DNA of 64,000 nucleotides. Origin: Cryobacterium sp. (lineage in GTDB: Bacteria > Actinomycetota > Actinomycetes > Actinomycetales > Microbacteriaceae). Every line of letters begins with the position of its first letter. Within the stretch, counting starts at the first letter, position 1. A program made the position numbers and the translations under genes. Positions 2,924 to 53,466 of the stretch are shown in pieces. The DNA is taken from NCBI GenBank assembly GCA_019638935.1, contig JAHBSW010000005.1:34566-98565 (forward strand). Reading direction: 5' to 3'. The notes under the pieces are model-generated. The model searched no databases and was not told where the DNA came from. It was given only the letters and a program-made list of their open reading frames with translations.

Positions 2924-3793
2924 TCAAAAAGACTCGGTCTCGTATCGGTTGACGAGCGAGCCGATGCCCTCGATGCGCACCTCGTAGCTGTCGCCGTCGC
3001 GCAGGAACACCTTCGGGTCGCGCGCGCCGCCGACGCCGGAGGGTGTGCCGGTGAGCACGAGGTCGCCGGGCTCGAGGGTCATGATGGTCGTGATGTAGAC
3101 GAGCAGGCTCGGGATGTCGAACATGAGGCTCGTGGTGCGGTCGTCCTGCATGATCTCGCCGTTGAGCAGCCCGGTGATCCGCACGTCGGGCTCGACGCCG
3201 CCAAGGTGCGCTGCCGGAACAACGACCGGACCGAGCGGGGTCAACCGATCCCATGCCTTGCCGGCCGTGCGCTGCGTGGTGTGGTTCTGGAAGTCGCGCA
3301 CCGAACCGTCATTCGCGGCAGTGAAGCCGAACACGGCATCCGTCACCTGCTCGCGAGTGAGGCGCCGCGAGCGTCGGCCGATGACGACCGCGAGCTCGGC
3401 CTCGAAGTCGATCGAGGTCGACTCGAGCGGCAGGGGCAGGGTGTCGAAGGGGCCGGCAAGCGCGTTGTCCCACTTTGCGAAGAGGTCCGGATGCGCGGGC
3501 CCCGCTGCACCGCCGAACTCGCGCACGTGCTCGAGGTAATTCTTGCCGACGCAGATGATCTTGCGGGGGCGGGCGATGGGAGCGAGCAGTTTCGCCGCAT
3601 CCGCCGCGGCGATGGGGGCACCCGCGACGATTCGGCCCGCGTGACCGCCGGCAGCCTCGAGCAGGTCGGGCAGGTCGGCAAATGTTCGGCCGCCAACGGT
3701 GGCCATCGACGCGCCTTCGCTGCCGAAGACGACGACAACGGGCTCCCCGGCGGCATCGACCACTCGCCCCAGTGAAGCCTCCGCGTACCCCAT
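2924..3793 (-). CDS. Fumarylacetoacetate hydrolase family protein
   Basis: A 289-residue protein of the FAH superfamily, metal-dependent enzymes that hydrolyse, decarboxylate or isomerise 2-oxo acids in aromatic catabolism. Visible features: C-V-G-K-N-Y-L-E-H-V-R-E-F-G at about residue 80, the metal-binding acidic set I-D-F-E-A-E-L-A-V-V-I-G, G-F-T-A-A-N-D-G-S-V-R-D-F-Q, K-A-W-D and the conserved L-T-G-T-P-S-G-V-G. The ATG at 3793 overlaps the stop of the upstream membrane protein gene by one base (TGATG), implying translational coupling. A GTG one codon earlier is possible. Substrate cannot be told; acylpyruvate or 2-hydroxymuconate-type substrates are typical. Confidence 0.85.
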   Translation of the reverse strand: MGYAEASLGRVVDAAGEPVVVVFGSEGASMATVGGRTFADLPDLLEAAGGHAGRIVAGAPIAAADAAKLLAPIARPRKIICVGKNYLEHVREFGGAAGPAHPDLFAKWDNALAGPFDTLPLPLESTSIDFEAELAVVIGRRSRRLTREQVTDAVFGFTAANDGSVRDFQNHTTQRTAGKAWDRLTPLGPVVVPAAHLGGVEPDVRITGLLNGEIMQDDRTTSLMFDIPSLLVYITTIMTLEPGDLVLTGTPSGVGGARDPKVFLRDGDSYEVRIEGIGSLVNRYETESF

Positions 3794-4281
3794 CACACCG
3801 GCCCCTGGCTCTCGTCGTCTTCATGGAGATCGAGCCGTGGCTCGATGATCGGCGTGGACCCGGACCACACCGTGAGCAGCAGCACCAGTGCCGTGCCGGA
3901 GAGCAGCCCATCGACGATCCCCGCGGGCAGCATGAATGTCATGAGAACGAGTGTCACCGTGCACATGACGAGGGAGAGCACGAGTCCCCACATCCGGTTC
4001 GTGAACAGCCCGATCGAGGCGACCACCCGCAGGGCACCGAAGATGCCGCTCATGATCATCATGAGGTAGAGGTTGTCATTGAGGTAGGCAAGCGCGAAGA
4101 TCTGCGCTCGCTCGGTCACCGCGGCCTGGTCGATTCCCAGGGCGAGTGCGACGAGGAGACCGAGAAACGGCAGCCCCTCCATGAGTCCGCCCTGAATGAG
4201 CTGCAGGGTGCCGGCGACGCGCACCCGCCGAGAACTCATAGACCGGGCATCCGTCGAGCCGGCCGAAACCACCTCACTCAC
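3793..4281 (-). CDS. Four-helix integral membrane protein, unknown function
   Basis: About 162 residues with four predicted hydrophobic helices: F-L-G-L-L-V-A-L-A-L-G, the L-Y-L-M-M-I-M-S-G-I-F-G-A-L segment, G-L-V-L-S-L-V-M-C-T-V-T-L-V-L-M-T, and G-T-A-L-V-L-L-L-T-V-W. A short acidic tail (H-E-D-D-E-S) follows. No family recognised. I chose GTG 4281 because TAGGCT (4293-4288) lies 6 nt upstream; ATG 4239 is the alternative. It is translationally coupled to the FAH-family gene, but a joint role is not evident. Confidence 0.65.
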   Translation of the reverse strand: MSEVVSAGSTDARSMSSRRVRVAGTLQLIQGGLMEGLPFLGLLVALALGIDQAAVTERAQIFALAYLNDNLYLMMIMSGIFGALRVVASIGLFTNRMWGLVLSLVMCTVTLVLMTFMLPAGIVDGLLSGTALVLLLTVWSGSTPIIEPRLDLHEDDESQGPV

Positions 4282-4443: not shown

Positions 4444-5760
4444 CTAGCGCGGCCTGCGCGGTTGATGGATCCCCATGCGGATGCGGGTCTTCCGCCGCTC
4501 GACGAGGATGAACACGGTGCCGATCAGCCACAGCGGCACCTGCGTGAGAAACGCTATGCGGAACGCGTCGAGCGTGTAGGTCTCGGGGGTTCCCGCACCC
4601 TGCAGATCGAGCGCGAGCCCGATAAAGAGAATCGCGAGCAGCGCCGAAAGGAACCCGCCGGAGTTCGTCACACCCGTCGCCGAGCTCAAGCGGTGGCTGG
4701 GATTGTGGGCGCGGGCGTGGTCGAAGGCGATCATCGACGCGGGTCCCCCGGTCGCGAGGGCGATGGCGAGAGCGACGAGCACCCAGAGCGGCGCTGTGCC
4801 CGGCCACAGGATGACCACGAACCAGACCGCGGCTTGAATCGCAATCGTGGGCAGCACCAGAGCGTGCGAGCGCCGCAGCGGCATCTTGGCGGAGAGGGCG
4901 CCGATAATCGGCCCGAAGGCCATGCCCGCCACCACATACACGATCATGATCGCTGCCGCCTCGCCGATGGCGCGGCCCTCGCCCACCGTGAGAAACGGTA
5001 AGCCCCACAGCATCATGAACGCCGCCCCCGCGAAAGGCGTCGTGAAGTGCGACCAGAAGGCGAGGCGGGTTCCCGGATGCGACCACGCCGCCCGAATGCC
5101 CACGCGCGTATCGATGGCGGAGGTCACTGTCTGAATCGCCCCCGTCTCGGTGTTGACCGAGACATCCGCTGCGACCTCGGGCGGGTGGTTCCGGATGACG
5201 AGCCACACGAGGATCGTGAACAGAATGCCGAGTGCCGCGAACGCTCCGAATGTGACCGTCCACGACGTGAGATGCAGCAGGGCGACGACCGGAACGATGG
5301 CGACGACCTGTCCAAGTTGTCCGACGATGCCGGTGAGCTGCACCATGACCGGGGCACGCTGAGCGGGGAACCAGGTGGCGATCAGGCGGAGCACGCTGGG
5401 AAAGACGGCGGCGTCGCCGAGACCGAGCAGCATGCGCGCGCCGATCGCGACCGCCACATTGGGCGAGATCGCCACGATCAACTGGCCAAGCGCCATGAGC
5501 ACCATGCCGATCGCCATGATGGGGCGTGCTCCGTGGCGGTCGAGCAGCAGGCCGACCGGTATCTGCATGGCCCCGTACACCGCGAGCTGCAGCACGGCGA
5601 ACATGGAGAGGGTCGAGGCATCCGTCTGAAAGTAGTTCGCCGCGTCAACGCCCACGGCCGAGAGCGACGTTCGGTTGGCGACAGCGAAGGTGTAGGCGGC
5701 CACACCGACGGTCCAGATGATCCACGCTCGTGCCCGGGGCGGTGAGGGGATCGGTGGCAT
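4444..5760 (-). CDS. MFS transporter
   Basis: A 438-residue major facilitator with about 12 hydrophobic helices. The loop between helices 2 and 3 carries the MFS motif G-L-L-L-D-R-H-G-A-R-P-I-M-A-I-G. R-M-L-L-G-L-G-D-A-A-V-F-P-S follows in helix 4, as in ACS-like (nitrate/sugar acid/oxalate) transporters. It lies in the inner membrane and is presumed to be a proton-coupled importer or exchanger of a small organic anion; substrate unknown. It is monocistronic: repeat copy 1 lies downstream and a 316-bp gene-free stretch upstream. Confidence 0.85.
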   Translation of the reverse strand: MPPIPSPPRARAWIIWTVGVAAYTFAVANRTSLSAVGVDAANYFQTDASTLSMFAVLQLAVYGAMQIPVGLLLDRHGARPIMAIGMVLMALGQLIVAISPNVAVAIGARMLLGLGDAAVFPSVLRLIATWFPAQRAPVMVQLTGIVGQLGQVVAIVPVVALLHLTSWTVTFGAFAALGILFTILVWLVIRNHPPEVAADVSVNTETGAIQTVTSAIDTRVGIRAAWSHPGTRLAFWSHFTTPFAGAAFMMLWGLPFLTVGEGRAIGEAAAIMIVYVVAGMAFGPIIGALSAKMPLRRSHALVLPTIAIQAAVWFVVILWPGTAPLWVLVALAIALATGGPASMIAFDHARAHNPSHRLSSATGVTNSGGFLSALLAILFIGLALDLQGAGTPETYTLDAFRIAFLTQVPLWLIGTVFILVERRKTRIRMGIHQPRRPR

Positions 5761-6076: not shown

Positions 6077-6886
6077 TCACGTAATCATTGTGCGTTTCGC
6101 CGTCTGAACAAGTCGATGAATCTTCTGGCGAAGCTCATTGAACTCCGGCAGCGAGCGCGTTCGAAGCTGATCTCGTGCCTTGGGCAGGGGAATGGGCACG
6201 TCTTCAAGAACGGAGGTCGGAGAGTTCGAGAGCACGAGAACACGCTGTCCGAGATAGATCGCCTCATCGATGTCGTGGGTGACGAAGACGACGGTTACCT
6301 GCAAGGACTTCCACAACGAGAAGACCAGGTCCTCCAGCTCGGCCCGGGTCTGCGCGTCCACCGCGGCGAAGGGCTCGTCCATCAGGAGGATGCGCGGCTG
6401 GTACGCGACGGCCCGGGCGATCGCAACGCGTTGCTGCATCCCACCTGAGAGCTGCCACGGGTACGAGTCGGGAACATGGGCTAGCCCGACGGCTTCGAGG
6501 GCGTCGGACACGAGCTCAGCCCGTCGCGTCGCGGGGACCTTCTTCTCGCGAAGCGGCAGTTCCACGTTCTGTCGCACCGTCAGCCACGGAAACAGGCTGC
6601 GCCCGTACTCCTGGAAGACGATCGCCATGCCTTCGGGTGGCGACGTGACCCGCGCACCCGCGAGGCTCACGCTCCCCGACGTTACGTCGAGCAAGCCCCC
6701 GATGCAGCGCAGCAGCGTCGTCTTGCCCGCTCCCGACGGCCCGACGATGCAGAGGAACTCGCCGTCGCTCACGCGGAAGTCGAGGTCGCGGATGGCCTCG
6801 AACTCGGTGCCCCCGCTCGAGTACACCTTCCTCACGTGCTGGACCTCGAGGAGCGAGGCATCGCCCTCAGATCGGGTGGTGTTCAT
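6077..6886 (-). CDS. ABC transporter ATP-binding protein (SsuB/TauB type)
   Basis: A 269-residue ATPase of the nitrate/sulfonate/taurine/pyrimidine-precursor importer class. Motifs: Walker A G-P-S-G-A-G-K-T-T, Q loop F-Q-E-Y-G-R-S-L-F-P-W-L, signature L-S-G-G-M-Q-Q-R-V-A-I-A-R-A, Walker B I-L-L-M-D-E-P-F-A-A-V-D, and switch His in V-F-V-T-H-D-I-D-E-A. ATG 6886 is chosen for the CAGGAG site just upstream; an earlier in-frame ATG at 6904 lacks one. It is the last gene of the eight-gene leftward operon and would power uptake through the two permeases encoded immediately upstream. Confidence 0.9.
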   Translation of the reverse strand: MNTTRSEGDASLLEVQHVRKVYSSGGTEFEAIRDLDFRVSDGEFLCIVGPSGAGKTTLLRCIGGLLDVTSGSVSLAGARVTSPPEGMAIVFQEYGRSLFPWLTVRQNVELPLREKKVPATRRAELVSDALEAVGLAHVPDSYPWQLSGGMQQRVAIARAVAYQPRILLMDEPFAAVDAQTRAELEDLVFSLWKSLQVTVVFVTHDIDEAIYLGQRVLVLSNSPTSVLEDVPIPLPKARDQLRTRSLPEFNELRQKIHRLVQTAKRTMIT

Positions 6887-6908
6887 TCTGGACGCTCCTG
6901 CCATCTGC

Positions 6909-7685
6909 TCAAACCCTTTGCTCGATACGTTGGATGCTGAGGTACCACCGGAGCACCCACGCCTCGAAGGCCCTGAAGATGACAGAGAGGATGACGCCGA
7001 TGAGTCCCAGGAGCAGCACGCCCGACCACATCTCGGGCATCTCGAAGCCCCGCTGGAACTGCACGATGGCGAAGCCTAGGCCGTTGCTCGCCGCGAACAT
7101 CTCACTGATCACCATGAGGATGATCCCGACCGAGAGCGACTGGCGGGCTCCCGTCACGATCTGGGGGCTCGCGCTTCGCAGCACGAGCGTCATCAGGCGC
7201 GTGGGCACGGAGAGGCGGTAGGACCGTGCCGTGTCGGCGAGCACCTCGTCGATCGCGCGCACGCCCTCGACGGTGTTGAGGAGCACCGGCCAGATGCAGC
7301 CGAGTGCGATCACGGCGACCTTCATCTCGTCGCCGATCCCGGCGAAGAGCATGATGACGGGAACCAGGACCGGCGGGGGCATCGCACGCAGGAACTCGAG
7401 GGTCGGCTCCGCGTAGTCTCGCAGGGTGCGGGACAGTCCGAGTGCCACGCCCGCTACGATGCCGATCGCGAGCGCGACGCCGTAGCCGATGAAGAGCCGC
7501 ACGAGGCTTGGCACCACATCGGAGAGGAGCCTGCCGCTCAACCATGTCTCGGGAAATGTCTCGACGATCGCGCGCAGGGGCGGCCAGAAGAAGCTCGTGC
7601 TGCCGGCGGACACGAACCACCACAGCGTGACGAGGATCACGGGGAGACCGACGGCGAAGAGCACTCGGCGAAGCAGCGTGTTCAC
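6909..7685 (-). CDS. ABC transporter permease (SsuC/TauC type), second copy
   Basis: A 258-residue binding-protein-dependent permease with about six transmembrane helices and the cytoplasmic coupling loop ending S-A-S-P-Q-I-V-T-G-A-R-Q-S-L-S-V-G. GTG 7685 is chosen: AGGAGG lies about 7 nt upstream and it overlaps the preceding permease stop by 4 nt (GTGA). The pair of unequal permeases suggests a heterodimeric channel, whereas SsuC-type channels are usually homodimers. Part of the operon carrying the monooxygenase and amidohydrolase. Confidence 0.9.
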   Translation of the reverse strand: MNTLLRRVLFAVGLPVILVTLWWFVSAGSTSFFWPPLRAIVETFPETWLSGRLLSDVVPSLVRLFIGYGVALAIGIVAGVALGLSRTLRDYAEPTLEFLRAMPPPVLVPVIMLFAGIGDEMKVAVIALGCIWPVLLNTVEGVRAIDEVLADTARSYRLSVPTRLMTLVLRSASPQIVTGARQSLSVGIILMVISEMFAASNGLGFAIVQFQRGFEMPEMWSGVLLLGLIGVILSVIFRAFEAWVLRWYLSIQRIEQRV

Positions 7686-8512
7686 GGCGAACCCTCCTGG
7701 TCCCGTCGAATCGAGGTGTGCCACCGCAGGACCCGGCGCTCGAGCAGCCGAGTGCCCAGATTGACGGCGACACCGAGCATCCCTGCCACGATGACGAAGG
7801 CGTACATGGTCGCCACCTGGCCGGCGGTTTGCGACAGCACTATCTGCTTTCCGATGCCGGGACTCCCGATCACGAGCTCGCCCGTGATCTCGAGGATCAG
7901 GGCGACCGATGCTCCCAGCCGCACCCCCGTCATGACATAGGGCAGGGCGGTCGGCCAGACGAGCGAACGAAGCTGGGTGAGCGGCCGGAAGCGATACGAG
8001 CGCGCCGTCTCGCGCGCGATCGGGTCGACATCCTGAACCCCAGAGAGAACCTGGATCAGCACCTGCCAGAAGGTCGCGTAGACGACCAGGAGCAGGGTCG
8101 AGCGCATGTCGGTGCCGAACAGGATGACCGCCAGCGGGATGAGGGCGACGGAGGGGATGGGCCGGAGGAACTCGATCGTGGAGTGGGTCGCCTCACGAAC
8201 CCACTTCAGACTGCCGATGAACATGCCGAGGGCGATGCCGGCGACGAGGGCGATTATCAGGCCAGTGAACCAGCCGAACACGGTCTGGCCCAGCAGGGTC
8301 CAGAAGGCCGGGGTCGCGGCCTGCGCCCCGAGAGCCACCATGATCTCGCTGAACGGGGGGAGGTACGCCGGGTTCACAAGTCCGAGCCGCGGCACGGCCT
8401 CGAGGATGAGCACGAAGAGGAGCGTTCCGGTGAGCCCACGGATCGCCACGCGCCGGCGTGCCGATCCTGCGCGGAGCCGAGTCGAGCCGCGCTGGGCGAG
8501 GGGCAGCGTCAT
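7682..8512 (-). CDS. ABC transporter permease (SsuC/TauC type), first copy
   Basis: A 276-residue inner-membrane permease of the same family as its downstream neighbour. A basic N terminus (R-G-S-T-R-L-R-A-G-S-A-R-R-R) precedes six hydrophobic helices. The coupling loop W-P-T-A-L-P-Y-V-M-T-G-V-R-L-G-A-S-V-A-L is intact. The ATG at 8512 starts 3 nt after the monooxygenase stop, with a GTG at 8515 as alternative, so translation is probably coupled. It would import the substrate handed over by the NMT1/SsuA-like lipoprotein of this operon. Confidence 0.9.
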   Translation of the reverse strand: MTLPLAQRGSTRLRAGSARRRVAIRGLTGTLLFVLILEAVPRLGLVNPAYLPPFSEIMVALGAQAATPAFWTLLGQTVFGWFTGLIIALVAGIALGMFIGSLKWVREATHSTIEFLRPIPSVALIPLAVILFGTDMRSTLLLVVYATFWQVLIQVLSGVQDVDPIARETARSYRFRPLTQLRSLVWPTALPYVMTGVRLGASVALILEITGELVIGSPGIGKQIVLSQTAGQVATMYAFVIVAGMLGVAVNLGTRLLERRVLRWHTSIRRDQEGSP

Positions 8513-8515
8513 CAC

Positions 8516-10444
8516 TCAGGTGCCGTTCTCGACTACGACCGTGTAGTCGTCGAGGTCGACGTCGCGCGTCAGGTTCCAGTAGGTTGTGAGGTCGTAGGGC
8601 CAGACCTGGGAGACGCGGCCCGAACTGCTCTTGTACCAGCTCGTCACGCTCTCGACGCCCCACGCTCGCTCGGCGTTCGCACTGTCGACGTCGGCGATGA
8701 ACCTCTCCAGCGCCTCCGGCGTGCAGTCCAGGTAGCGGTAGCCCTCGCGGATCATCGTCGTGATGCTCGCGAGGATGTAGTCGACGGCGGCCTCGGTCAT
8801 GAAGGTCGCGCTGCCGTTGACGACGAGATTGGTGTTGGGGCCGTACAAGCAGTACAGGTTCGGGAAGTGCGGGATCGTGATGCCCAGGTACGCACGCGGG
8901 TCTCCGCTCCAATGCTCTTTCAGGCTCAGCCCCTCGAGGCCGGTGATGCGAATGGGGTCGAGCGAGTTGGCGGCCTGGAAACCGGTGCAGTAGATGATCA
9001 CGTCGACCTCGATGAGGGAGCCGTCGACGGTGCTTATCCCCGTCGGTTCGATCGACCGGATTCCCTCGGTGTGCAAGCCTACGTTGTCCCGCTTGAGTGT
9101 CGTCGACCATGCGCCCCCGTCGCGCAGCATGCGCTTCGCTCCCGGTGGGTAGTCGGGGATCACCTGGGCCATGAGGTCCTCACGGTCGGTGAACTGCTCG
9201 CGGATCCTGCTCTCGAGCACCTCGCGGAGCTCACGGTTCGCTGCGGATACGCTACCGGGCTCCTTCCACTCGGGGTCGACGCCGACGTAGGGGAGCCGAC
9301 CCTCCGTGGCCGTCCAGAACTGCCAGAACCGGAACCAGCGCTCGTAGTTCGGGACGACCTGCAGGAGCCACGCGAAGCCGGGCTTCAGGGGCTCGTAGTA
9401 CCCGCGGGTCGGCATGATCCACGGCGCGGTCCTCTGGAAGACGTGGAGTTGCTCGACATCCGCAGCGATCGCGGGAACGACCTGATATGCGCTGGCGCCC
9501 GTTCCGATCACGGCGACGCGCTGGCCCACGAGATCGACGTTCGGGTCCCACCGGGCGGAGTGCATCTCGAGCCCGCTGAACTCTCCGACACCGACGATGT
9601 CGGGCAGCTTGGGCAGATTGAGCTGGCCCACCGCGCTAACGAGCGCGCGGGCGGTGACCGTGTCGGCGACGCCGTCGGATGTCACCTCGAGAGTCCACGA
9701 TCCGGTCGTGGCATCGAAGGTCGCGGCATCGACCCGCGTGCTGAACCGGAAGTGCGGCCACAGGTTCTCGCTGTCACACAGCGAGCGGAAGTACTCGAGG
9801 ATCGTCGAGCCCTCGGAGAACTGGTGCGTCCAGTCCTTCGTCTGGGCGAACGAGAATCCGTACGCGAAATTGTTGGTGTCCAGGCGAACGCCGGGGTAAA
9901 CGTTCTCCAGCCACGTTCCCCCCATGTCGTGGTTCTTCTCCAGGATCACGAAAGGGATGCCGGCCCGCTTCAAGCGGTAGGCCATCGCGATGCCCGACAT
10001 CCCGCCACCGATGATCGCGACGGTGAAGTCCTCGGCAAGGGCGCCGACCGCTGCGGGCTCCGCCTCGGCGCTCTCGTACCCGAGCTCGCGATCCAAGAGC
10101 TTCAGCAGCGAGCCGTCCACGTCGCCGATGAGGTAGTCCATCAGTCGGCGACGAAAGCCCTTGTCTCCCTTCGACTTCGGGGCGACGCGATCATCGCCCG
10201 CGAGCAGGCGCAGCACCCCATCGACCGCGCGCCCTCGCGCGATCGTCTGCTGCTGCTGGGAGAGGCCGCCTTGGGCCTCCGGCAGCGCGACCTTGCGGTT
10301 GGGCGGCCTGAGATCGTCAGGCACCATCGAGTCGTCCCCGAGCGCGTCGGCGAGGGCGACCATCAGGGCGGGAATCTCCGCGTCGGCCACCGCCCGCGTC
10401 ACCCATTCGCGATCGGTCAGGCCAGGTGGCCGGATTCCGGTCAT
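8516..10444 (-). CDS. Baeyer-Villiger flavin monooxygenase, 4-hydroxyacetophenone monooxygenase type
   Basis: A 642-residue class B flavoprotein monooxygenase. An N-terminal helical extension of about 135 residues, typical of 4-hydroxyacetophenone monooxygenase (about 640 residues), precedes the FAD Rossmann motif V-A-I-I-G-G-G-M-S-G (142-151). Then follow G-G-T-W-L-E-N-V-Y-P-G-V-R-L-D (176-190), the Baeyer-Villiger fingerprint F-S-G-L-E-M-H-S-A-R-W-D (290-301) and the NADPH motif G-T-G-A-S-A-Y. Such enzymes insert oxygen beside a ketone to make an ester or lactone in the cytoplasm. The alpha/beta hydrolase two genes upstream could cleave that ester. The real ketone is unknown. Confidence 0.9.
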   Translation of the reverse strand: MTGIRPPGLTDREWVTRAVADAEIPALMVALADALGDDSMVPDDLRPPNRKVALPEAQGGLSQQQQTIARGRAVDGVLRLLAGDDRVAPKSKGDKGFRRRLMDYLIGDVDGSLLKLLDRELGYESAEAEPAAVGALAEDFTVAIIGGGMSGIAMAYRLKRAGIPFVILEKNHDMGGTWLENVYPGVRLDTNNFAYGFSFAQTKDWTHQFSEGSTILEYFRSLCDSENLWPHFRFSTRVDAATFDATTGSWTLEVTSDGVADTVTARALVSAVGQLNLPKLPDIVGVGEFSGLEMHSARWDPNVDLVGQRVAVIGTGASAYQVVPAIAADVEQLHVFQRTAPWIMPTRGYYEPLKPGFAWLLQVVPNYERWFRFWQFWTATEGRLPYVGVDPEWKEPGSVSAANRELREVLESRIREQFTDREDLMAQVIPDYPPGAKRMLRDGGAWSTTLKRDNVGLHTEGIRSIEPTGISTVDGSLIEVDVIIYCTGFQAANSLDPIRITGLEGLSLKEHWSGDPRAYLGITIPHFPNLYCLYGPNTNLVVNGSATFMTEAAVDYILASITTMIREGYRYLDCTPEALERFIADVDSANAERAWGVESVTSWYKSSSGRVSQVWPYDLTTYWNLTRDVDLDDYTVVVENGT

Positions 10445-10482
10445 TCCGCTACGTCCTTGCAGTGCTGCATGATCTCGCGATC

Positions 10483-11058
10483 CTAGATTCCGCTCGCGAG
10501 GTCTTGGTTGCGGTCACCGATGCGCTCGAATGGGCGCCCGCCGGTGGATGCTGCGATGGCCACCACGATCTCATCGGCTTCGGGCGCATCCTCGATCGAG
10601 AGGGTGGACGTGATGAAGTGCGACCTCCGCCACGACTCGAGCTTGTGCACCATGGGGATGACGACGAGGGCACCGGAGCCGGCCCGGCGATTGGTGAAGC
10701 TCAGGTAACTCGTGCCCTCCGCCATGTCCCGGAACACGTTGCCAAAGTGCAACGTGTGGATGAGGGCCGACGCGTGCTCGATCTCGCCGTTCAGCCCGAC
10801 GACCGCCGATTTGCCGTACGCCTCGATGCTCACCCCACCGCCCAGTGCGGTGACGACCTCATGAGAGAGCAGTTGGCCCAGTTCGGGAGCGATCGCCTTT
10901 ATCTTCGGGCTGAGGTCCTCGACGAACCCCTCGTCGACCCACGGATTGCGGATCACCGCGGCGGCGATGGCGGTGCGGATCGTGGGATCAACCTCCCGAT
11001 CGTATTCGGTACTGAGGGTCTCCACCTGAGTGATGACTTTGCGGAGCTTGAGCGACAT
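10483..11058 (-). CDS. Amino acid synthesis family protein (PF06684/DUF1185)
   Basis: A 191-residue protein I recognise as the AA_synth family (PF06684). The motif is near the N terminus: R-N-P-W-V-D-E-G-F-V-E-D-L, then L-S-H-E-V-V-T-A-L-G and Y-G-K-S-A-V-V-G-L-N-G-E-I-E-H-A-S-A-L-I-H. The C terminus has the typical A-P-E-A-D-E-I-V-V-A-I-A-A-S-T-G-G-R-P and a final R-I-G-D region. Despite the name, the biochemical function of the family is poorly defined; members often sit in catabolic clusters beside amidohydrolases and transporters, as here. Its place between the hydrolase and the monooxygenase suggests a step on the same substrate. Confidence 0.8.
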   Translation of the reverse strand: MSLKLRKVITQVETLSTEYDREVDPTIRTAIAAAVIRNPWVDEGFVEDLSPKIKAIAPELGQLLSHEVVTALGGGVSIEAYGKSAVVGLNGEIEHASALIHTLHFGNVFRDMAEGTSYLSFTNRRAGSGALVVIPMVHKLESWRRSHFITSTLSIEDAPEADEIVVAIAASTGGRPFERIGDRNQDLASGI

Positions 11059-11111
11059 GTGGTTCCTATCGGTTATCGGTGTTGAAGGTGAAAGTTCGGC
11101 GATGCGTCAGG

Positions 11112-11948
11112 TCAGACGCGCTTGGCCATCGCGTGTCCAATGTGCTCGTCGAGTCGGGCCGCGACCTCGGCGGCATTGTCGACGTGCGGAAGATGGAGTC
11201 CATCCTGGACGGTGAACACCGAAGCACCGGTGATCTCCTTCGCCATCTCGACGGCCCATTGGGGGTCGACGAGCGGGTCTTGACCGCCGGCGACGAGGAG
11301 GGTGGGTCGGGTGATCCGGCGGATCATCGCCGTGTGGGGGTGGATGTCAGGGTCGCTCGGCTCGGGAAGGATCCCAGGCCCGTGAATGCGCCGCGCTCGA
11401 TACGACGGGAGGTAGCCGTCAGAGAGAGCGCTCTCCAGCCGCGCGCGCACAGCGGCCTCAGAGGGCTCCTTGACGAGCGTGCGCTCGACGGCGAGCGTCG
11501 CCTCTTCGGTCGGTTCATAGTTGCTGATCGGCAGCAATCCCTCGGGATTCATGTACCGGCCCCCTGGACCGGCGATGGAGGTTCCGCAAAGAATGGAGAA
11601 TGCTCCCCGCGCCATTGACTGAAGCACCATCCCCCCACCTAAGGAGGCACCAACCAAGGCCGGCGGCGCGAGCGCGAGCGCGTCGCAAAGGCCGGCGACT
11701 TGGCCGATCATGTGGCTGTAGAAGTCCGTGTCGAGGTGGATCAACTTCTCCGACCTGCCCGAGCCGGTCATGTCAGGGGCGATGACCCGGTACTTCTCAG
11801 CCAGGAGCGGGATTAGCGGTGCCCAGCACGATCGTGCGTCCGAGCCAGGCGAGCCGTCATGAAGGAGAACGATGGGCTGCGCTGCTGCTGATCCTTCGTC
11901 GAGGTAGGCGGTCTTCACGCCACGAATACGCATCACTCTGTAGTCCAC
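11112..11948 (-). CDS. Alpha/beta-fold hydrolase
   Basis: A 278-residue alpha/beta hydrolase of the MhpC/haloperoxidase-like group. The oxyanion region is L-L-H-D-G-S-P-G, the nucleophile elbow V-G-A-S-L-G-G-G-M, the acid probably the Asp of A-G-G-Q-D-P-L-V-D-P, and the base the His of Q-D-G-L-H-L-P-H-V-D-N. GTG 11948 is chosen because AAGGAG lies 6 nt upstream; an earlier ATG adds a histidine-rich stretch without a site. In the operon it precedes the PF06684 protein and the monooxygenase, so ester cleavage after Baeyer-Villiger oxidation, or C-C bond cleavage, is a reasonable guess. Confidence 0.85.
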   Translation of the reverse strand: MDYRVMRIRGVKTAYLDEGSAAAQPIVLLHDGSPGSDARSCWAPLIPLLAEKYRVIAPDMTGSGRSEKLIHLDTDFYSHMIGQVAGLCDALALAPPALVGASLGGGMVLQSMARGAFSILCGTSIAGPGGRYMNPEGLLPISNYEPTEEATLAVERTLVKEPSEAAVRARLESALSDGYLPSYRARRIHGPGILPEPSDPDIHPHTAMIRRITRPTLLVAGGQDPLVDPQWAVEMAKEITGASVFTVQDGLHLPHVDNAAEVAARLDEHIGHAMAKRV

Positions 11949-12033
11949 GCTGTGCTCCTTGTCATGCCGATGATGAGTGTGCTGGTAGTCGACGGTGCGC
12001 ATTCACGCACCGCCGACCCCCAAACAACGTCGC

Positions 12034-13047
12034 CTAGTTGATGACGGAGATCGAGGGCACATCGATCTCGTTATTGATCAGGCCGAACTTCAGCATCAGG
12101 TCAGCGAGACCTTGCAGTCCGGTGATGTTGAACGGCGCGTTTGCATCTTCGTACCACGTGGGCAGGTAGATCTGTGCGGCCGTTTCCTCGTCGATCGCCG
12201 TGTACACCGAGAGAATCGCTCGTGCCTCTTCAGGGTTTGCCTGAGCGTAGGCGTTCGAACGATTGGCGGCCCGCGCGAACGCAGCAATCACCTCGGGGTT
12301 CTGCTCAACGTAGTCGCGTGCGGCGAAGTAGACGTCGCCGGGAAGTTCGAACCCAGCTTCCGACATGTACGAGAAGAGCCCGCGGAACGTATCTCCGCTG
12401 TTGCGCGCGATGGTGTAGAACGGCTCCGAGACGACAATCGCATCGACGCTCCCAGTGTCGAGTGCGTTGAGCATGTCCGGGAAACCTATCTCGACCAGAT
12501 TGAGCTGTGACGAGTCGGCGCCCAGTTCCTCAACTGCCGACCTAATTGCTAGCTCCGCGATCCCCTTGAAGGTGTTCACCGCTACGGTCTTGCCCTCAAG
12601 ATCGCTGGCCGACTCGATTGCCGAGTCGCTCCGCACGAGAACGACGTCGGGAGCCTGAACCCAGCCGTCCGCGTCGACGGTGGGGGATTGCTCTGCATAG
12701 TCGGCGTTAGCGATCATCACGATGTCGAGACCCTGGTGGGCCGCGAGCATCGGAGAAACGGGGTTGGCCAGTCCGACCTGAAACTCTCCGCTCGTCAGCC
12801 CGGGGATGATGGCTGCACCGCCCGCGGCGATGTCGTACTCTACGTCGAGTCCCTCTTCTTCGAAGAATCCCTTTTCGATGCCGAGAACGAGGGCCGCGGC
12901 ATGAACGATGGGAATCGTACCGACGGTCACAGACGTGAGTTCGCCGGAATCACCCGGTGTCGGGGCAGGCTGGTCGCTGGTGCAACCTGAGAGCACAAGC
13001 GCGCTCGCGAGAGACAGCACAGCGGCTGTCGTTATTGACTTCCTCAT
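12034..13047 (-). CDS. ABC transporter substrate-binding lipoprotein (NMT1/SsuA-like)
   Basis: A 337-residue secreted lipoprotein. The signal peptide M-R-K-S-I-T-T-A-A-V-L-S-L-A-S-A-L-V-L-S ends at lipobox L-S-G-C, followed by a T/P/G-rich linker. The mature part is the NMT1/THI5-SsuA fold: G-I-E-K-G-F-F-E-E-E-G-L-D-V-E-Y, later D-L-E-G-K-T-V-A-V-N-T and V-V-S-E-P-F-Y-T-I-A. It should bind the imported compound outside the membrane and deliver it to the two permeases. ATG 13047 gives a normal signal peptide; earlier starts add a His/Asp-rich stretch. It follows the amidohydrolase gene in the operon. Confidence 0.85.
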   Translation of the reverse strand: MRKSITTAAVLSLASALVLSGCTSDQPAPTPGDSGELTSVTVGTIPIVHAAALVLGIEKGFFEEEGLDVEYDIAAGGAAIIPGLTSGEFQVGLANPVSPMLAAHQGLDIVMIANADYAEQSPTVDADGWVQAPDVVLVRSDSAIESASDLEGKTVAVNTFKGIAELAIRSAVEELGADSSQLNLVEIGFPDMLNALDTGSVDAIVVSEPFYTIARNSGDTFRGLFSYMSEAGFELPGDVYFAARDYVEQNPEVIAAFARAANRSNAYAQANPEEARAILSVYTAIDEETAAQIYLPTWYEDANAPFNITGLQGLADLMLKFGLINNEIDVPSISVIN

Positions 13048-13112
13048 TGTGGACCTCATTTGTGTGTGGTGGATGGATCGGGAAATGTGATCGTTATCGT
13101 GGGGGTGTTCGC

Positions 13113-14762
13113 TCATTCGCTACTCCAGGTGGCTGCACCTCCCCATTCGGTTGAGTGATGGACCGGGTTTCCGCCGACCACCGTGAGGACCGATGTGATG
13201 AACGGGATACTGTCGTCACTCACCTCGAAGTAGTCCTCGCTCAGCACTGCGAGATCGGCTAGTTTGCCCACCTCGAGAGTGCCGAGTCGGTCGTCATCGA
13301 AAGAGAACCACGCGCTGCCCACGGTGTAAGCCGCAAGTGCCTCGGCCCTGGTGAGACGCTCCGACTCGTCCCTCGTGATTCCCCCGTCGATGGGCTTGCC
13401 GGTGACCATCCACCAGAGAGAACGCCAGGGATTTATGGGGGCCGCGACGGTGGCGTCAGTGCCTCCTCCGATGGGCAAGCCCAGGTTCAGCATCGTCTTC
13501 AGTGGCGGGGCGTGGCGAACGGCGTCCTCGCCCCAAGCCTTAGCTGAGTCGATGGTGCGCATCCCCATGCGGTCTTGCACCATGATCCCCGCGCCGAGCG
13601 CCTTGGCCCGATGGAGGCTTTCGTCGCTGATCGCGTCAGCATGCGAGAACGAGAACCTGAGGTCGGAGAGAGGGATCTCGACATCGACGTCCTCCCAAAC
13701 GTCGAGGATCGAACGGACGCTCGAGTCATGGATCGCGTGGATGTTCATCGTCCAGCCGCTTTCAGCGAGGAGCACCGTGGCTTCCCGAAGGCGCTGCTTC
13801 AACTCTGCGGAGATCTCGATCGAGGTGAATCCAGCGCCATCGTAGTAGCCCTTGAAAAGGATCTCGCCGATACCGACAGTCCGTAAAAAATCATCGCCGA
13901 AGCGCGGGTGCAGGTAGTTGATAAAGTCCTTGATCTGATCGAGCTCATCGACCCCGCTGCGCGGATGGACGAAGAGCCGAGTACGAAGAGTCATGGCACC
14001 CCGTCGATGAACCTCATGCACGGCCCGGTATGCCTCAGCGTCCATACGCGATGCGCCGCCCAGATCGATGGCTCCTGTCATGCCCAGTGCATTGAGGTCG
14101 CGCTGCATCGCGATCGTGTTCTCGATCTGGCGATCGAGGGTCTGGTTCATCATGAGCTCGAGACAGTAGGCGTACGCCGCCTGCCCCTTGATGATGCCGG
14201 TAGGGTTCCCCGATGCGTCGCGCACGACCTCCCCGGAGAACGGCACCTGCTCGGTCCCTCGAATGCCGCACTTCTCCAGCGCGGCAGTGTTCAGGATCGC
14301 CTGGTCGTACTGCTGCTGCACGAAGATCGGGACAGTGGCCGACAGTTCAGTGAGCTCCTCGGGCGTGGGCGGGCGCTGCTCGTCGAACTGGCCGGGGTGC
14401 CACCCTCCTACGACCACAATGCAGCCCGTCGACGGCACGTCGGCAAGAGCCTCGCGAATCAGTGCGAAGCCTTCGGCTAGAGAGCTGACGTCGCCCCAGC
14501 GCACCTCGTCGTTCCACGAACGGCCCGCTCGAACGACATGAACGTGTGAGTCGATTAGGCCTGGGATCACTCGACGGCCGTCGAGCTCAACCACCGATGT
14601 GTGCGACCCGATGAGCGCTGCGACCTCGGCTATCGATCCCACTGCAACCACTCTGTCGCCGCGAACGGCAATCGCCTCGGCGTCCACCGCACCGAGTACC
14701 CCTGTCGTGATCTTGCCGCCAAGAAGCACTGCATCAGCCGGGCGTGGATTCGACGCGTTCAT
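13113..14762 (-). CDS. YtcJ-like metal-dependent amidohydrolase (amidohydrolase 3 family)
   Basis: A 549-residue amidohydrolase of the YtcJ/N-substituted formamide deformylase type. Metal ligands: the H-V-H of G-L-I-D-S-H-V-H-V near residue 60, a His in M-N-I-H-A-I-H-D, the S-F-S-H-A-D-A motif, and the Asp of G-G-G-T-D-A-T-V-A-A-P-I-N-P-W near the C terminus, followed by the A-Y-T-V-G-S-A-W segment. Members hydrolyse amides, formamides or cyclic ureides. It is the first gene of the leftward operon, and a perfect inverted repeat lies 33 nt upstream. It has a paralogous counterpart at 53467, also next to an ABC importer. Confidence 0.85.
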   Translation of the reverse strand: MNASNPRPADAVLLGGKITTGVLGAVDAEAIAVRGDRVVAVGSIAEVAALIGSHTSVVELDGRRVIPGLIDSHVHVVRAGRSWNDEVRWGDVSSLAEGFALIREALADVPSTGCIVVVGGWHPGQFDEQRPPTPEELTELSATVPIFVQQQYDQAILNTAALEKCGIRGTEQVPFSGEVVRDASGNPTGIIKGQAAYAYCLELMMNQTLDRQIENTIAMQRDLNALGMTGAIDLGGASRMDAEAYRAVHEVHRRGAMTLRTRLFVHPRSGVDELDQIKDFINYLHPRFGDDFLRTVGIGEILFKGYYDGAGFTSIEISAELKQRLREATVLLAESGWTMNIHAIHDSSVRSILDVWEDVDVEIPLSDLRFSFSHADAISDESLHRAKALGAGIMVQDRMGMRTIDSAKAWGEDAVRHAPPLKTMLNLGLPIGGGTDATVAAPINPWRSLWWMVTGKPIDGGITRDESERLTRAEALAAYTVGSAWFSFDDDRLGTLEVGKLADLAVLSEDYFEVSDDSIPFITSVLTVVGGNPVHHSTEWGGAATWSSE

Positions 14763-14794
14763 CATTCAATGATCCTCTGATTGGCATCCGGTAA

Positions 14795-14809
14795 TACGAT
14801 TATTTCGTA
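14795..14809. promoter_or_regulatory. Candidate GntR operator upstream of the amidohydrolase operon
   Basis: TACGA-TTATT-TCGTA is a perfect inverted repeat in an AT-rich stretch of otherwise GC-rich DNA, just upstream of the first operon gene and downstream of the GntR/FCD gene. The size and spacing suit a dimeric winged-helix repressor. The assignment to the neighbouring regulator is inference. Confidence 0.5.
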
Positions 14810-14911
14810 GTACGTGATTAGAAGGTAGTCGTCATCGTTCGCGCTGTCAATGCGCGAACGATGAGATATGAGGTTTGTTGCAGCCGGACTGGGTCGGCCC
14901 GCAGTTCAGCT

Positions 14912-15649
14912 CTAGCGCGCTCCTGCGCCGGTCTGTGCGTCGAGTTCACGCATTGCGACGACGGCAGCGGCTTCGACGTGCAAGCGTGCCGCGCGAGCGG
15001 CATTCTCCGCATCACCCGCTACGGCAAATCGCACGATGTCGGAGACCTCCTTGAAGGTCTGAGGGCGTCGACCCTCCGATCCGAGCGACAGTTTGCGCAG
15101 CACACTCACCTGAGATTGCAGCCTGAGTAGTGTCTCTCCCAAGATCTCGTTGTGCGCGCCCTCCGTGAGTGCCGCATAGAACTCGTCCTTAGACAGAATC
15201 CAGCCCACATGACTGTCTTCCTCGAAAGCCGCCCTCACCGATTCCACCGCACCGGTCAGGCGAGCGCGTTCGGACGCTGTCGCCTTGGTAGCGAACAGTT
15301 CCGCAGCAAGGGCTTCGAGTCCGGCCCGCACCTCGAATATGGCTGCGGCCTCAGTCTTCGAGATGCCCCTCACCACTGGCCCGACGTTCGGGATCACCGT
15401 CACTAAGCGCTCGGCCTCCAGAAAGCGGAGCGCCTCGCGTACGACGGTGCGGCTCACTCCGAAGCGCAGACAGAGTTGACGTTCGCCGAGCCGCTCGCCT
15501 GCCTGATACTCGCCGTCGACAATAGCGGCACGAAGAGTCGCGATCATCTCCTGCCTCAGGGGCGCTGCAGTTCGTGCTAGCGGCATGGACAGCGCTCGAT
15601 CGCCGCTCGAACCGGTGAGGGGAGTGCTTTCATCGATGGACTGTGTCAT
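14912..15649 (-). CDS. GntR-family regulator, FCD (FadR) subfamily
   Basis: A 245-residue regulator. The N-terminal winged helix has I-V-D-G-E-Y-Q-A-G-E-R-L-G-E-R-Q-L and F-G-V-S-R-T-V-V-R-E-A-L-R-F-L-E. The C-terminal FCD helical domain senses a ligand, often a carboxylate, through a bound metal. Here the usual metal histidines are largely replaced: the common F-H of the first ligand helix is F-Y in D-E-F-Y-A-A-L, and only the last His (A-A-R-L-H-V-E-A-A) is obvious. It probably represses the downstream catabolic operon. ATG 15649 is preferred over an in-frame start at 15682. Confidence 0.85.
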   Translation of the reverse strand: MTQSIDESTPLTGSSGDRALSMPLARTAAPLRQEMIATLRAAIVDGEYQAGERLGERQLCLRFGVSRTVVREALRFLEAERLVTVIPNVGPVVRGISKTEAAAIFEVRAGLEALAAELFATKATASERARLTGAVESVRAAFEEDSHVGWILSKDEFYAALTEGAHNEILGETLLRLQSQVSVLRKLSLGSEGRRPQTFKEVSDIVRFAVAGDAENAARAARLHVEAAAVVAMRELDAQTGAGAR

Positions 15650-15715
15650 TCGCCTTGTTTCCCTGTTTGCAGTTGAACCCATTGTGGCCTAGCGCGCCAC
15701 GATAGCCGAGAGAAG

Positions 15716-15725
15716 AGCATATGCT
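15716..15725. promoter_or_regulatory. Palindrome in the GntR-cupin divergent promoter region
   Basis: AGCATATGCT is a perfect 10-bp palindrome within the 120-bp space between the GntR gene and the divergent cupin gene. TAGGCT (15756-15761) and overlapping TAATAT (15761-15766) are possible -10 boxes for the cupin. It may be an autoregulatory site, but its arms differ from the repeat at 14795. Confidence 0.35.
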
Positions 15726-15769
15726 TCCCCCTGTCACAACTGTTGCATACTGTCCTAGGCTAATATGGT

Positions 15770-16090
15770 ATGAGCGCAAATCAAGCCCATTCGACTCTTC
15801 AGTTCGACACCACAGCGGTCAGGATCACGCTGTGGGAGTTCCCGCCCGGCACTCAGACCGGGTGGCATCTCCACGAGCACGACTACGCCGTCGTGCCCGT
15901 CACCTCGGGCCGACTGACCGTCGAATCAGACGAAGCGAGCGTGGATAACGAGCTTCAGGCTGGCGTCACCTATATGAGAACGCGACCGGTGCGTCACAAT
16001 GTACGCAACGACGGCACGGATTTCATCAGCTTCGTCGAACTAGAGTTCAAATCGCCCGATCATCGGCCCCCTGCCGACGGCGAAGGCTGA
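15770..16090 (+). CDS. Small cupin-domain protein
   Basis: A 106-residue single-domain cupin. The first motif G-T-Q-T-G-W-H-L-H-E-H-D-Y-A-V-V-P-V carries the His ligands and the second is R-P-V-R-H-N-V-R-N-D-G. It probably binds a divalent metal. Small cupins of this kind act as isomerases, dioxygenases or effectors for catabolic pathways; this one is divergent from the GntR gene of the monooxygenase/amidohydrolase cluster and may belong to that pathway. TAGGCT lies 8 nt before ATG 15770, so the transcript is nearly leaderless. Confidence 0.75.
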   Translation: MSANQAHSTLQFDTTAVRITLWEFPPGTQTGWHLHEHDYAVVPVTSGRLTVESDEASVDNELQAGVTYMRTRPVRHNVRNDGTDFISFVELEFKSPDHRPPADGEG

Positions 16091-52524: not shown

Positions 52525-53447
52525 CTTCCCCCGCGACCACCGGCCCCAGGGGGGCCTCGGCATCAAACGCCACGGCCCCACCAACGCGCACCCCACCGCG
52601 CCGCAAGCCGCGGGTTCCGCTGAGCGACCGTCTGCTGGGCATGTGGGGTGTGCTCGTCTTTCTCTTCCTCTTCGCCCCGCTGCTCGTCATCGTGGTGCAC
52701 TCGTTCAACTCGGGCAGGCTCCTGGTTGCCTGGCAGGGCTTCGGCTTCGAGGCGTGGGAGGCGATGTTCACGAAGCCCGCGATCGGCAACGCGGTCTGGA
52801 TCACCCTGCAGACGGGCGTGATCGCGGCGCTGCTCTCCACGTTCCTCGGCACGCTCGCGGGGCTCGCTCTCGCCCGCCGGGCCGGCAAGTGGACCCCGTG
52901 GTTCTCGATCCTGCTCATCCTGGTCACCGTGACCCCCGAGATCGTGGACGCCGTCGCGCTGCTGCCGTGGCTCGTGTTCCTCGGCGCCGACCTGGGTCTG
53001 GGGATCTTCAACGACGGCATCGTGCGCCTCGTCGTGGGTCACTCGCTGTTCGCGACCGCGGTCGTCTCCTACCTCGTGCGCGCACGGCTGGTGGGGCTCG
53101 ATGAGCGGCTCGAGGAGGCGTCCGCCGACCTGTACGCACCCCCCGTGCGCACGTTCTGGAGGATCACTCTCCCGCTGACGATGCCCGCCGTGCTCGCCGG
53201 CGCCCTGCTGTCGTTCACGCTCAGCCTCGACAACACCGTCGTCAGCGCGTTCATTCAGGTGTCGGGCTCGACCCCGTGGCCGGTCTATGTGCTGAGCGCC
53301 GTGCGCAGCGGTCTGCGACCCGAGATCGCGTCGGTCTCGACGGTCATGCTCGTGCTCACCCTCGGTGCGATCGCCCTCGTGGCCGTCGTGCTCAAACGCT
53401 CGGGCGACTCGACCACCCAGATCGTGCGCACGCTCTCGGGCGATTAA
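52521..53447 (+). CDS. Polyamine-type ABC permease (PotC-like)
   Basis: A 308-residue permease. The proline-rich cytoplasmic N terminus (about 30 residues) precedes six helices. Motifs: P-L-L-V-I-V-V-H-S-F-N in helix 1 and the EAA-like loop L-E-E-A-S-A-D-L-Y-A-P-P. The family motif S-F-T-L-S-L-D-N-T-V-V-S-A-F is clear. The gene is followed 19 nt later by the amidohydrolase. Confidence 0.9.
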   Translation: MTSPATTGPRGASASNATAPPTRTPPRRKPRVPLSDRLLGMWGVLVFLFLFAPLLVIVVHSFNSGRLLVAWQGFGFEAWEAMFTKPAIGNAVWITLQTGVIAALLSTFLGTLAGLALARRAGKWTPWFSILLILVTVTPEIVDAVALLPWLVFLGADLGLGIFNDGIVRLVVGHSLFATAVVSYLVRARLVGLDERLEEASADLYAPPVRTFWRITLPLTMPAVLAGALLSFTLSLDNTVVSAFIQVSGSTPWPVYVLSAVRSGLRPEIASVSTVMLVLTLGAIALVAVVLKRSGDSTTQIVRTLSGD

Positions 53448-53466
53448 GACAGCAGAAGGGCCAAGG

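Follow-up and report, generated by a model that had tools for sequence, protein, structure and literature searches.

Degradation of 4-hydroxyacetophenone by Pseudomonas fluorescens ACB relies on an N-terminally extended type I Baeyer-Villiger monooxygenase (BVMO), HAPMO, and a hydrolase, and ring-cleavage genes lie in the same cluster. The trigonelline (tgn) operon contains an LLM monooxygenase, a flavin reductase and an aldehyde dehydrogenase, and its protein TgnF is found in the context of a hydroxybutyrolactone intermediate and of succinate semialdehyde, which cyclises. Here, a 64 000-nucleotide stretch of DNA from Cryobacterium sp. (contig JAHBSW010000005.1; hereafter the window) was analysed, in which eight adjoining minus-strand genes (6077-14765; open reading frames and Pfam profile matches) include those for a HAPMO-like BVMO, an alpha/beta hydrolase and a protein of PF06684, the family to which TgnF is related. 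A regulator and a cupin gene lie upstream. The ten genes are, in order of transcription of the operon and then outwards:

13113-14765, minus strand: YtcJ-type amidohydrolase (PF07969; Amidohydro_3, 275.7 bits), operon gene 1
12034-13116, minus strand: SsuA/NMT1-type substrate-binding lipoprotein (NMT1, 115.9 bits; LVLSGC lipobox), operon gene 2
11112-12002, minus strand: alpha/beta hydrolase, a proposed esterase (Abhydrolase_1; GASLG, GGQD and H motifs)
10483-11058, minus strand: PF06684 (DUF1185, 'AA_synth') protein of a TgnF-like clade (204.5 bits against a cut-off of 27)
8516-10444, minus strand: predicted HAPMO-type (N-terminally extended) type I BVMO (FSGLEMHSARWDP fingerprint, GGGMSG and GTGAS motifs)
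7682-8515, minus strand: ABC permease 1 (BPD_transp_1; 50-66% identity in 16 relatives)
6909-7724, minus strand: ABC permease 2 (BPD_transp_1; at most 66% identity in relatives)
6077-6904, minus strand: ABC importer ATPase (ABC_tran, 110.8 bits; 62-71% in 16 relatives), last operon gene
14912-15682, minus strand: GntR/FCD regulator (GntR and FCD domains), 146 bp upstream of the operon
15770-16090, plus strand: small divergent cupin (Cupin_2, 37 bits)

These genes had been proposed in an initial annotation of the window, and their locations and families hold (Pfam matches, coordinates), as do the upstream GntR gene and the divergent cupin. The short or overlapping same-strand junctions claimed there were also found across all eight genes (-4, 31, 53, 38, 0, -43 and 4 bp in transcription order); the 43-bp overlap between the permease genes hinges on a GTG start. 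An FAH-family hydrolase gene (2924-3796) and an MFS transporter gene (4444-5760) follow downstream on the same strand and were excluded as members, the MFS gene starting 316 bp past the operon end. The FAH protein has family-level matches only (35-44%) in all seven congeners.

We read the locus as a hybrid catabolic operon, probably acquired, for import of an aromatic ketone (maybe amide-bearing) followed by amide hydrolysis, Baeyer-Villiger oxidation and ester cleavage with assistance from the PF06684 protein, and assign this reading a probability of about one half. An SsuABC-type importer would take in a polar, probably aromatic ketone, perhaps carrying an amide, from which the YtcJ-type enzyme would strip the acyl (perhaps formyl) group. 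Oxygen insertion beside the carbonyl by the HAPMO-type monooxygenase would then yield an ester for the alpha/beta hydrolase to cleave. The PF06684 protein may lend help with the intermediate, once oxygenated or hydrolysed; its relatives presumably play a similar part next to other flavin monooxygenases. A phenolic product could feed a hydroxyquinol route of the host, and the GntR protein would control the operon. Both the substrate and the order of these steps are what we infer from the gene content.

Type I BVMOs are defined by an FxGxxxHxxxW[P/D] fingerprint and two Rossmann motifs, all of which are present in the aligned 8516-10444 product. Its N-terminal extension of ~138 residues aligns in six relatives, and the FAD domain begins near residue 140. 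By sequence, the protein is a HAPMO-like type I BVMO, predicted to insert oxygen into aryl ketones. The top identity among the matches listed was 51%, and the best-scoring relative belongs to a Rhodoglobus metagenome-assembled genome (MAG; L126), where a related hydrolase lies ~6 kb from the BVMO, beyond another ABC transporter. Neighbourhoods were compared at 98 BVMO loci, comprising 80 genome-contig loci (the best 80 of 568 confirmed relatives), 14 class loci and 4 plasmid loci; 17 of the 98 span less than 12 kb. Within 9 kb of the BVMO, 7 of the 98 carry an importer like that of the window in type (ATPase identity of at least 50%, and at least 38% for a permease) and 8 carry a related alpha/beta hydrolase; PF06684 and YtcJ were found near the BVMO at none of them. 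L203, which falls outside the 9-kb rule, has another BVMO copy 5-7 kb from the importer. Among the genes that accompany importer and BVMO at the importer-BVMO loci are an HpaB-like hydroxylase (L131), a 2-oxopent-4-enoate-hydratase-like gene (L195), FAD hydroxylases with a carboxylesterase (L090) and a set of maleylpyruvate-isomerase, FAH and cupin genes, gentisate-like in look (L082). The host genome encodes a second BVMO-like protein (G000:C20:10013-11461; 33% identity over residues 135-596).

An NMT1 lipoprotein, SsuC-type permeases and an ATPase within one operon make up an importer of the SsuABC/NMT1 type. The best match of the binding protein in the PDB is 3IX1, a formylaminomethylpyrimidine-binding protein (E 1.9e-12), a likeness at family level only. 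By sequence, the two permeases are the SsuC/TauC-type pair of a single importer, since relatives carry such pairs adjacent. Operon gene 2 encodes the binding protein and the last three genes the permeases and ATPase, with the hydrolase, PF06684 and BVMO genes between them; that the importer genes enclose enzyme genes favours one substrate over two fused operons. Importer relatives (permease 2 at 51-66%) were also found at 16 loci without a BVMO nearby (one of only 4 kb), which excludes the importer as a BVMO-specific partner. Genes were listed individually at six of these loci (L236, L237, L238, L241, L246 and L247), and aromatic-catabolism-like neighbours were seen at four: a VanA-type oxygenase, similar to vanillate demethylase (L237); a reductase and a PcaR-like regulator (L238); a P450, with the aromatic link judged by eye (L241); and benzoylformate-decarboxylase-, pcaJ- and pcaF-like genes (L246). 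None was seen on listing the genes of L236 and L247, and several NCBIfam scores for such neighbours fall under the model cut-offs. Given the neighbours at both BVMO-containing and BVMO-free loci, the role of the importer family seems to extend beyond BVMO pathways to aromatic catabolism at large.

The alpha/beta hydrolase is 28-35% identical to eight hydrolases near BVMOs and shows weak likeness to those of tgn-like clusters; in a tree it grouped with the BVMO-adjacent enzymes at moderate support (83/79). Its function as an esterase is proposed from context, since among solved structures it comes closest to meta-cleavage C-C hydrolases. The YtcJ-type enzyme belongs to PF07969 by score and by its HxH, K, H, H and D motifs (pattern match only), which correspond to the metal ligands of such amidohydrolases. 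Members of PF07969 are described in a preprint as including NfdA, an N-substituted formamide deformylase, and metal-dependent bile salt hydrolases (PMC13081902), which makes amide hydrolysis, perhaps of an N-formyl group, a plausible activity. A second YtcJ-like amidohydrolase is encoded in the window at 53365-55113, followed by a HAD-like gene (judged by eye).

The PF06684 protein retains all residues listed as invariant in 97 aligned rows (N38, P39, G82, K83, G88, G91, H95, R110, P159, E163, R175 and R179), as well as E92 and E94 (kept in 92 of 97 rows), and together with its score this places it within the family. It departs from the family at D20 and D42, where 88 and 89 of the 97 rows have Gly. 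Phe177 was aligned by eye with His174 of BB2672, a position occupied by His in 45 rows, Asn in 23, Gln in 18 and Phe in 6. In a tree of the 97 sequences, a set to which TgnF does not belong, the protein is sister to 11 proteins (support 100/97), nine of them encoded on alpha- and betaproteobacterial plasmids and the other two in small genomes of the window's class; its own branch is long (0.62) and its best identity 54-56%. Of the 11 sister loci, 10 were inspected, and in most of them PF06684 is joined by genes for an alpha/beta hydrolase, a flavin reductase, an LLM monooxygenase and an aldehyde dehydrogenase, often also by a GntR gene and an ABC importer; one is interrupted by transposases and has no annotated LLM gene (L085), and in another no flavin reductase was seen (L103). 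By this content, the sister-protein clusters resemble the trigonelline operon.

Neighbours of PF06684 were counted by tblastn at 73 loci (60 genome regions, not all of the listed places, and 13 plasmid regions), some of which were inspected gene by gene. Of the 73, 54 have a flavin monooxygenase within 6 kb, 52 an alpha/beta hydrolase and 48 both, figures to be read in the light of the loci being related, not independent, and of the reference proteins having been drawn from nine of them, which thus count themselves. Amidohydrolases of other subfamilies occur within the same distance in 18. Of the two main neighbours, neither was detected at the 16 importer loci that served as a control set (flavin monooxygenase 0/16, alpha/beta hydrolase 0/16), where aldehyde dehydrogenase (5/16), amidohydrolase (1/16) and GntR genes (1/16) were seen. 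This wider association with flavin monooxygenases and alpha/beta hydrolases is what is new here. It bears out in part the earlier suggestion that the locus may give the family a real function; the family was already not blank, since TgnF and HcdD, from trigonelline and 7-hydroxycoumarin degradation, are PF06684 relatives encoded in catabolic operons (PMC7913881). The two are homologous, TgnF stimulates succinate-semialdehyde oxidation by TgnE, and the account given there reports that attempts to detect such stimulation for HcdD failed (PMC7913881). A crystal-structure paper had proposed a role in amino-acid metabolism, partly from neighbouring branched-chain amino acid transport genes (PMC2954203); most of the contexts inspected in this survey speak rather for the catabolism of aromatics and heterocycles. 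A role as general helper of flavin-monooxygenase pathways, opening or tautomerising the lactone, hemiacylal or enol-ester products of oxygen insertion, would fit the TgnF intermediates, the dihydrocoumarin (a lactone) of HcdD and the BVMO ester or lactone expected beside PF06684 here; we regard this generalisation as unlikely.

Other arrangements of PF06684 were observed in the same survey. The gene overlaps the start of an Amidohydro_1 amidohydrolase gene by 4 bp at two loci (L047 and L111) and adjoins one at a third (L107), and LigB and ring-hydroxylating oxygenase genes lie near the pair in L047. The amidohydrolase genes in this second kind of PF06684-amidohydrolase pairing are:

L047:9012-10807, Amidohydro_1 partner of PF06684
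L107:9902-11682, Amidohydro_1 partner of PF06684
L111:9920-11703, Amidohydro_1 partner of PF06684

On a Pseudosulfitobacter plasmid (L212:4104-8677) two PF06684 genes stand beside genes for a 6-hydroxynicotinate reductase and a UPF0280 protein. Tandem PF06684 pairs occur in actinobacteria (L031-L038, L040, L041, L043, L105, L109, L110, L115, L120, L121, L206 and L234); the two copies fall in different tree clades, which suggests an old duplication and perhaps a hetero-oligomer. A recurring cluster in the window's family (L217, L228, L235 and similar loci) combines PF06684 with FAD hydroxylase-like, class II aldolase-like and 3-hydroxyacyl-CoA dehydrogenase-like genes (assigned by eye).

The exact gene set had no second copy in the genome-contig, plasmid and class loci searched. 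A BVMO of this type was found near none of the 73 PF06684 loci, the sole flag among them (L211) being a partial 26% match to another oxidoreductase and not of HAPMO type, nor in 29 further short family loci covering ~1.5 kb on each side of PF06684. Conversely, the scan from the BVMO side (best 80 of 568 relatives) gave no PF06684 or YtcJ match, and a PF06684 peptide scan of the genome contigs confirmed no relative. Including the genome that holds the window, 44 of the 398 genomes from the family and 27 of the 394 from the class contain PF06684. Since the full set was not recovered, conservation of the neighbourhood holds for sub-modules only (importer-BVMO and hydrolase-BVMO).

Within the genus, PF06684 was absent from all seven other Cryobacterium genomes (87-96% complete), and no BVMO match at E<=1e-30 was obtained in any of them. 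This implies gain in the Cryobacterium sp. lineage or loss in the others, of which gain is probably the correct explanation. An ABC-F gene through which flank synteny was followed matched in just 2 of the 7 congeners (E<=1e-50, 37-46% identity) and was uninformative. The host genome (2.4 Mb in 75 contigs, 94.86% complete) contains, on the 7-kb contig C62, a relative of hydroxyquinol 1,2-dioxygenase (463.8 bits to 1tmx), an iron-dependent maleylacetate-reductase-like enzyme (top PDB match 3iv7, named alcohol dehydrogenase IV; 228.5 bits to 3w5s, a maleylacetate reductase), a PcaR-like regulator (150.6 bits, under the model cut-off of 284.75) and part of a flavin hydroxylase cut by the contig end. 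These hydroxyquinol-type genes could make a phenolic end product usable by the host. Models of gentisate and homogentisate dioxygenases gave no match in the genome, and 13 glyoxalase-family matches were obtained. Three frames with two such matches each are possible two-domain extradiol dioxygenases (G000:C75:60947-61696, G000:C65:842-1561 and G000:C56:70223-71029).

Ketone uptake, Baeyer-Villiger oxidation and ester cleavage, as first proposed for this locus, are thus supported in part: by the BVMO fingerprint, the importer-BVMO loci (7 of 98), the aromatic neighbours of importer relatives (4 of 6), the hydrolase grouping and the hydroxyquinol-like genes of the host. The amide on the substrate is a tentative element, its basis being the membership of a single amidohydrolase in a diverse superfamily. 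This last point weighs against the favoured reading, together with several others: the single occurrence of the exact set; the 16 importer loci free of BVMO; the 19 of 73 PF06684 loci in which no flavin monooxygenase was detected (L047, L111, L107 and L212 among them); the C-C hydrolases as best solved relatives of the hydrolase, and the moderate support for its grouping; the location of the hydroxyquinol-type genes on another contig, unlinked to the operon; and the glyoxalase-family matches, by which extradiol cleavage is possible too.

Part of the evidence could instead be accommodated by a variant N-heterocycle pathway, in which a pyridine- or pyrimidine-like substrate bears the ketone, the BVMO replaces a two-component ring-opening LLM monooxygenase and the YtcJ-type enzyme deformylates an N-formyl product. 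The PF06684 protein is placed in the clade of tgn-like clusters, an N-formyl pyrimidine is the ligand of the binding protein's best solved relative, and the family of the amidohydrolase includes NfdA (PMC13081902). The GntR protein is 34-37% identical to those of six tgn-like clusters, a likeness that is not specific, as similar identities were found in unrelated contexts (e.g. L231). However, the LLM monooxygenase, flavin reductase and aldehyde dehydrogenase are missing among the ten genes, the alpha/beta hydrolase bears little likeness to its counterparts in tgn-like clusters, and the kin of importer and BVMO point to aromatics. We also know of no established case of heteroaromatic ring opening by a BVMO, and consider this pathway rather unlikely. 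The same three missing enzymes exclude a plain tgn operon, and a 3-acetylpyridine pathway was dropped as a match after a literature search on it gave nothing.

It is also conceivable that two unrelated operons (YtcJ, binding protein, hydrolase and PF06684; BVMO and importer) were fused by chance and share no substrate. The exact set was found once and its sub-modules occur apart, as would be expected, but the binding protein, permeases and ATPase look like one importer, as in relatives, and enclose the enzymes, and junctions of -43 to +53 bp run throughout, so that such a fusion appears quite improbable to us. The operon might, finally, detoxify its substrate, a ketone antibiotic or a plant phenolic, and not feed the cell. 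BVMOs are often promiscuous, the host has a second BVMO-like protein, and an MFS gene, which may transport in either direction, lies 316 bp beyond the operon; yet the enzymes are accompanied by a dedicated importer and regulator and the operon holds no exporter, and we rate detoxification as very unlikely, the least probable of the accounts considered.

The DNA between the GntR gene and the operon contains two further features:

14832-14864, minus strand: perfect 13-bp inverted repeat with a 7-nt loop, a probable terminator with no clear T run behind it
14792-14812, no strand assigned: TAATACGA-TTATT-TCGTAGTA (7 of 8 pairs), a candidate regulator operator upstream of the operon

The GntR gene probably has its own transcript, since the 13-bp hairpin, its probable terminator, separates it from the operon. 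An 8-bp arm of this repeat was matched by 7 of 300 shuffles, and the 146-nt gap folds at z -5.0 (equalled by 0 of 200 shuffles). The hairpin was not among the sites listed by a terminator scan, terminator-like sites are no commoner in the region than in shuffles, and no inverted repeat beating shuffles was found in three other gaps. The pattern TACGA-N3..7-TCGTA occurs once in the window, and this TACGA-N5-TCGTA copy sits nearer the operon start than the hairpin; it is a weak candidate for an operator because the motif was picked after being seen.

Compared with described systems, the operon is a variant of the BVMO-hydrolase ketone pathway, extended by an importer dedicated to it, an amidohydrolase and a PF06684 protein of the TgnF-like clade. 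As in the HAPMO route, an N-terminally extended type I BVMO is paired with a hydrolase, and hydroxyquinol-type genes occur elsewhere in the host; the differences are that no ring-cleavage genes are among the ten and that an SsuABC-type importer, YtcJ and PF06684 are added. The tgn operon and its look-alikes (rhizobial and other; L086, L207, L210 and L215) similarly cluster GntR, PF06684, an alpha/beta hydrolase, a flavin monooxygenase and an ABC importer. Here, however, a BVMO stands in for the LLM monooxygenase and flavin reductase, there is no aldehyde or succinate-semialdehyde dehydrogenase, the hydrolase comes from another group and the importer is of another type. In the hcdDEFG upper pathway of 7-hydroxycoumarin degradation, PF06684 (HcdD) and a cupin-like protein (HcdF) likewise act in an aromatic-lactone pathway (PMC7913881), together with an alcohol-dehydrogenase-type reductase (HcdE) and an FMN reductase (HcdG); no BVMO or amidohydrolase is named in the description of that cluster considered here (PMC7913881). 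The importer-BVMO clusters of Nocardioides (L195), a Subtercola MAG (L157), a Rhodococcus antarcticus plasmid (L082), Arthrobacter/Pseudarthrobacter (L130, L131 and L139) and a class member (L090) share the importer type (ATPase 50-62%) and the BVMO type (42-46%). Where inspected, they differ in having FAD hydroxylase, HpaB-like, meta-cleavage-like or gentisate-like genes (the last judged from annotation), whereas YtcJ and PF06684, present here, were not found in them. The enzymes are thus of known kinds, in a combination not found twice in the loci searched. PF06684, named for amino-acid synthesis on thin evidence, now stands beside a further class of flavin monooxygenase, and its role can be put as a testable question, namely which oxygenated intermediate is its target; this operon is a convenient place to ask it, because the product of a BVMO is a defined ester or lactone.

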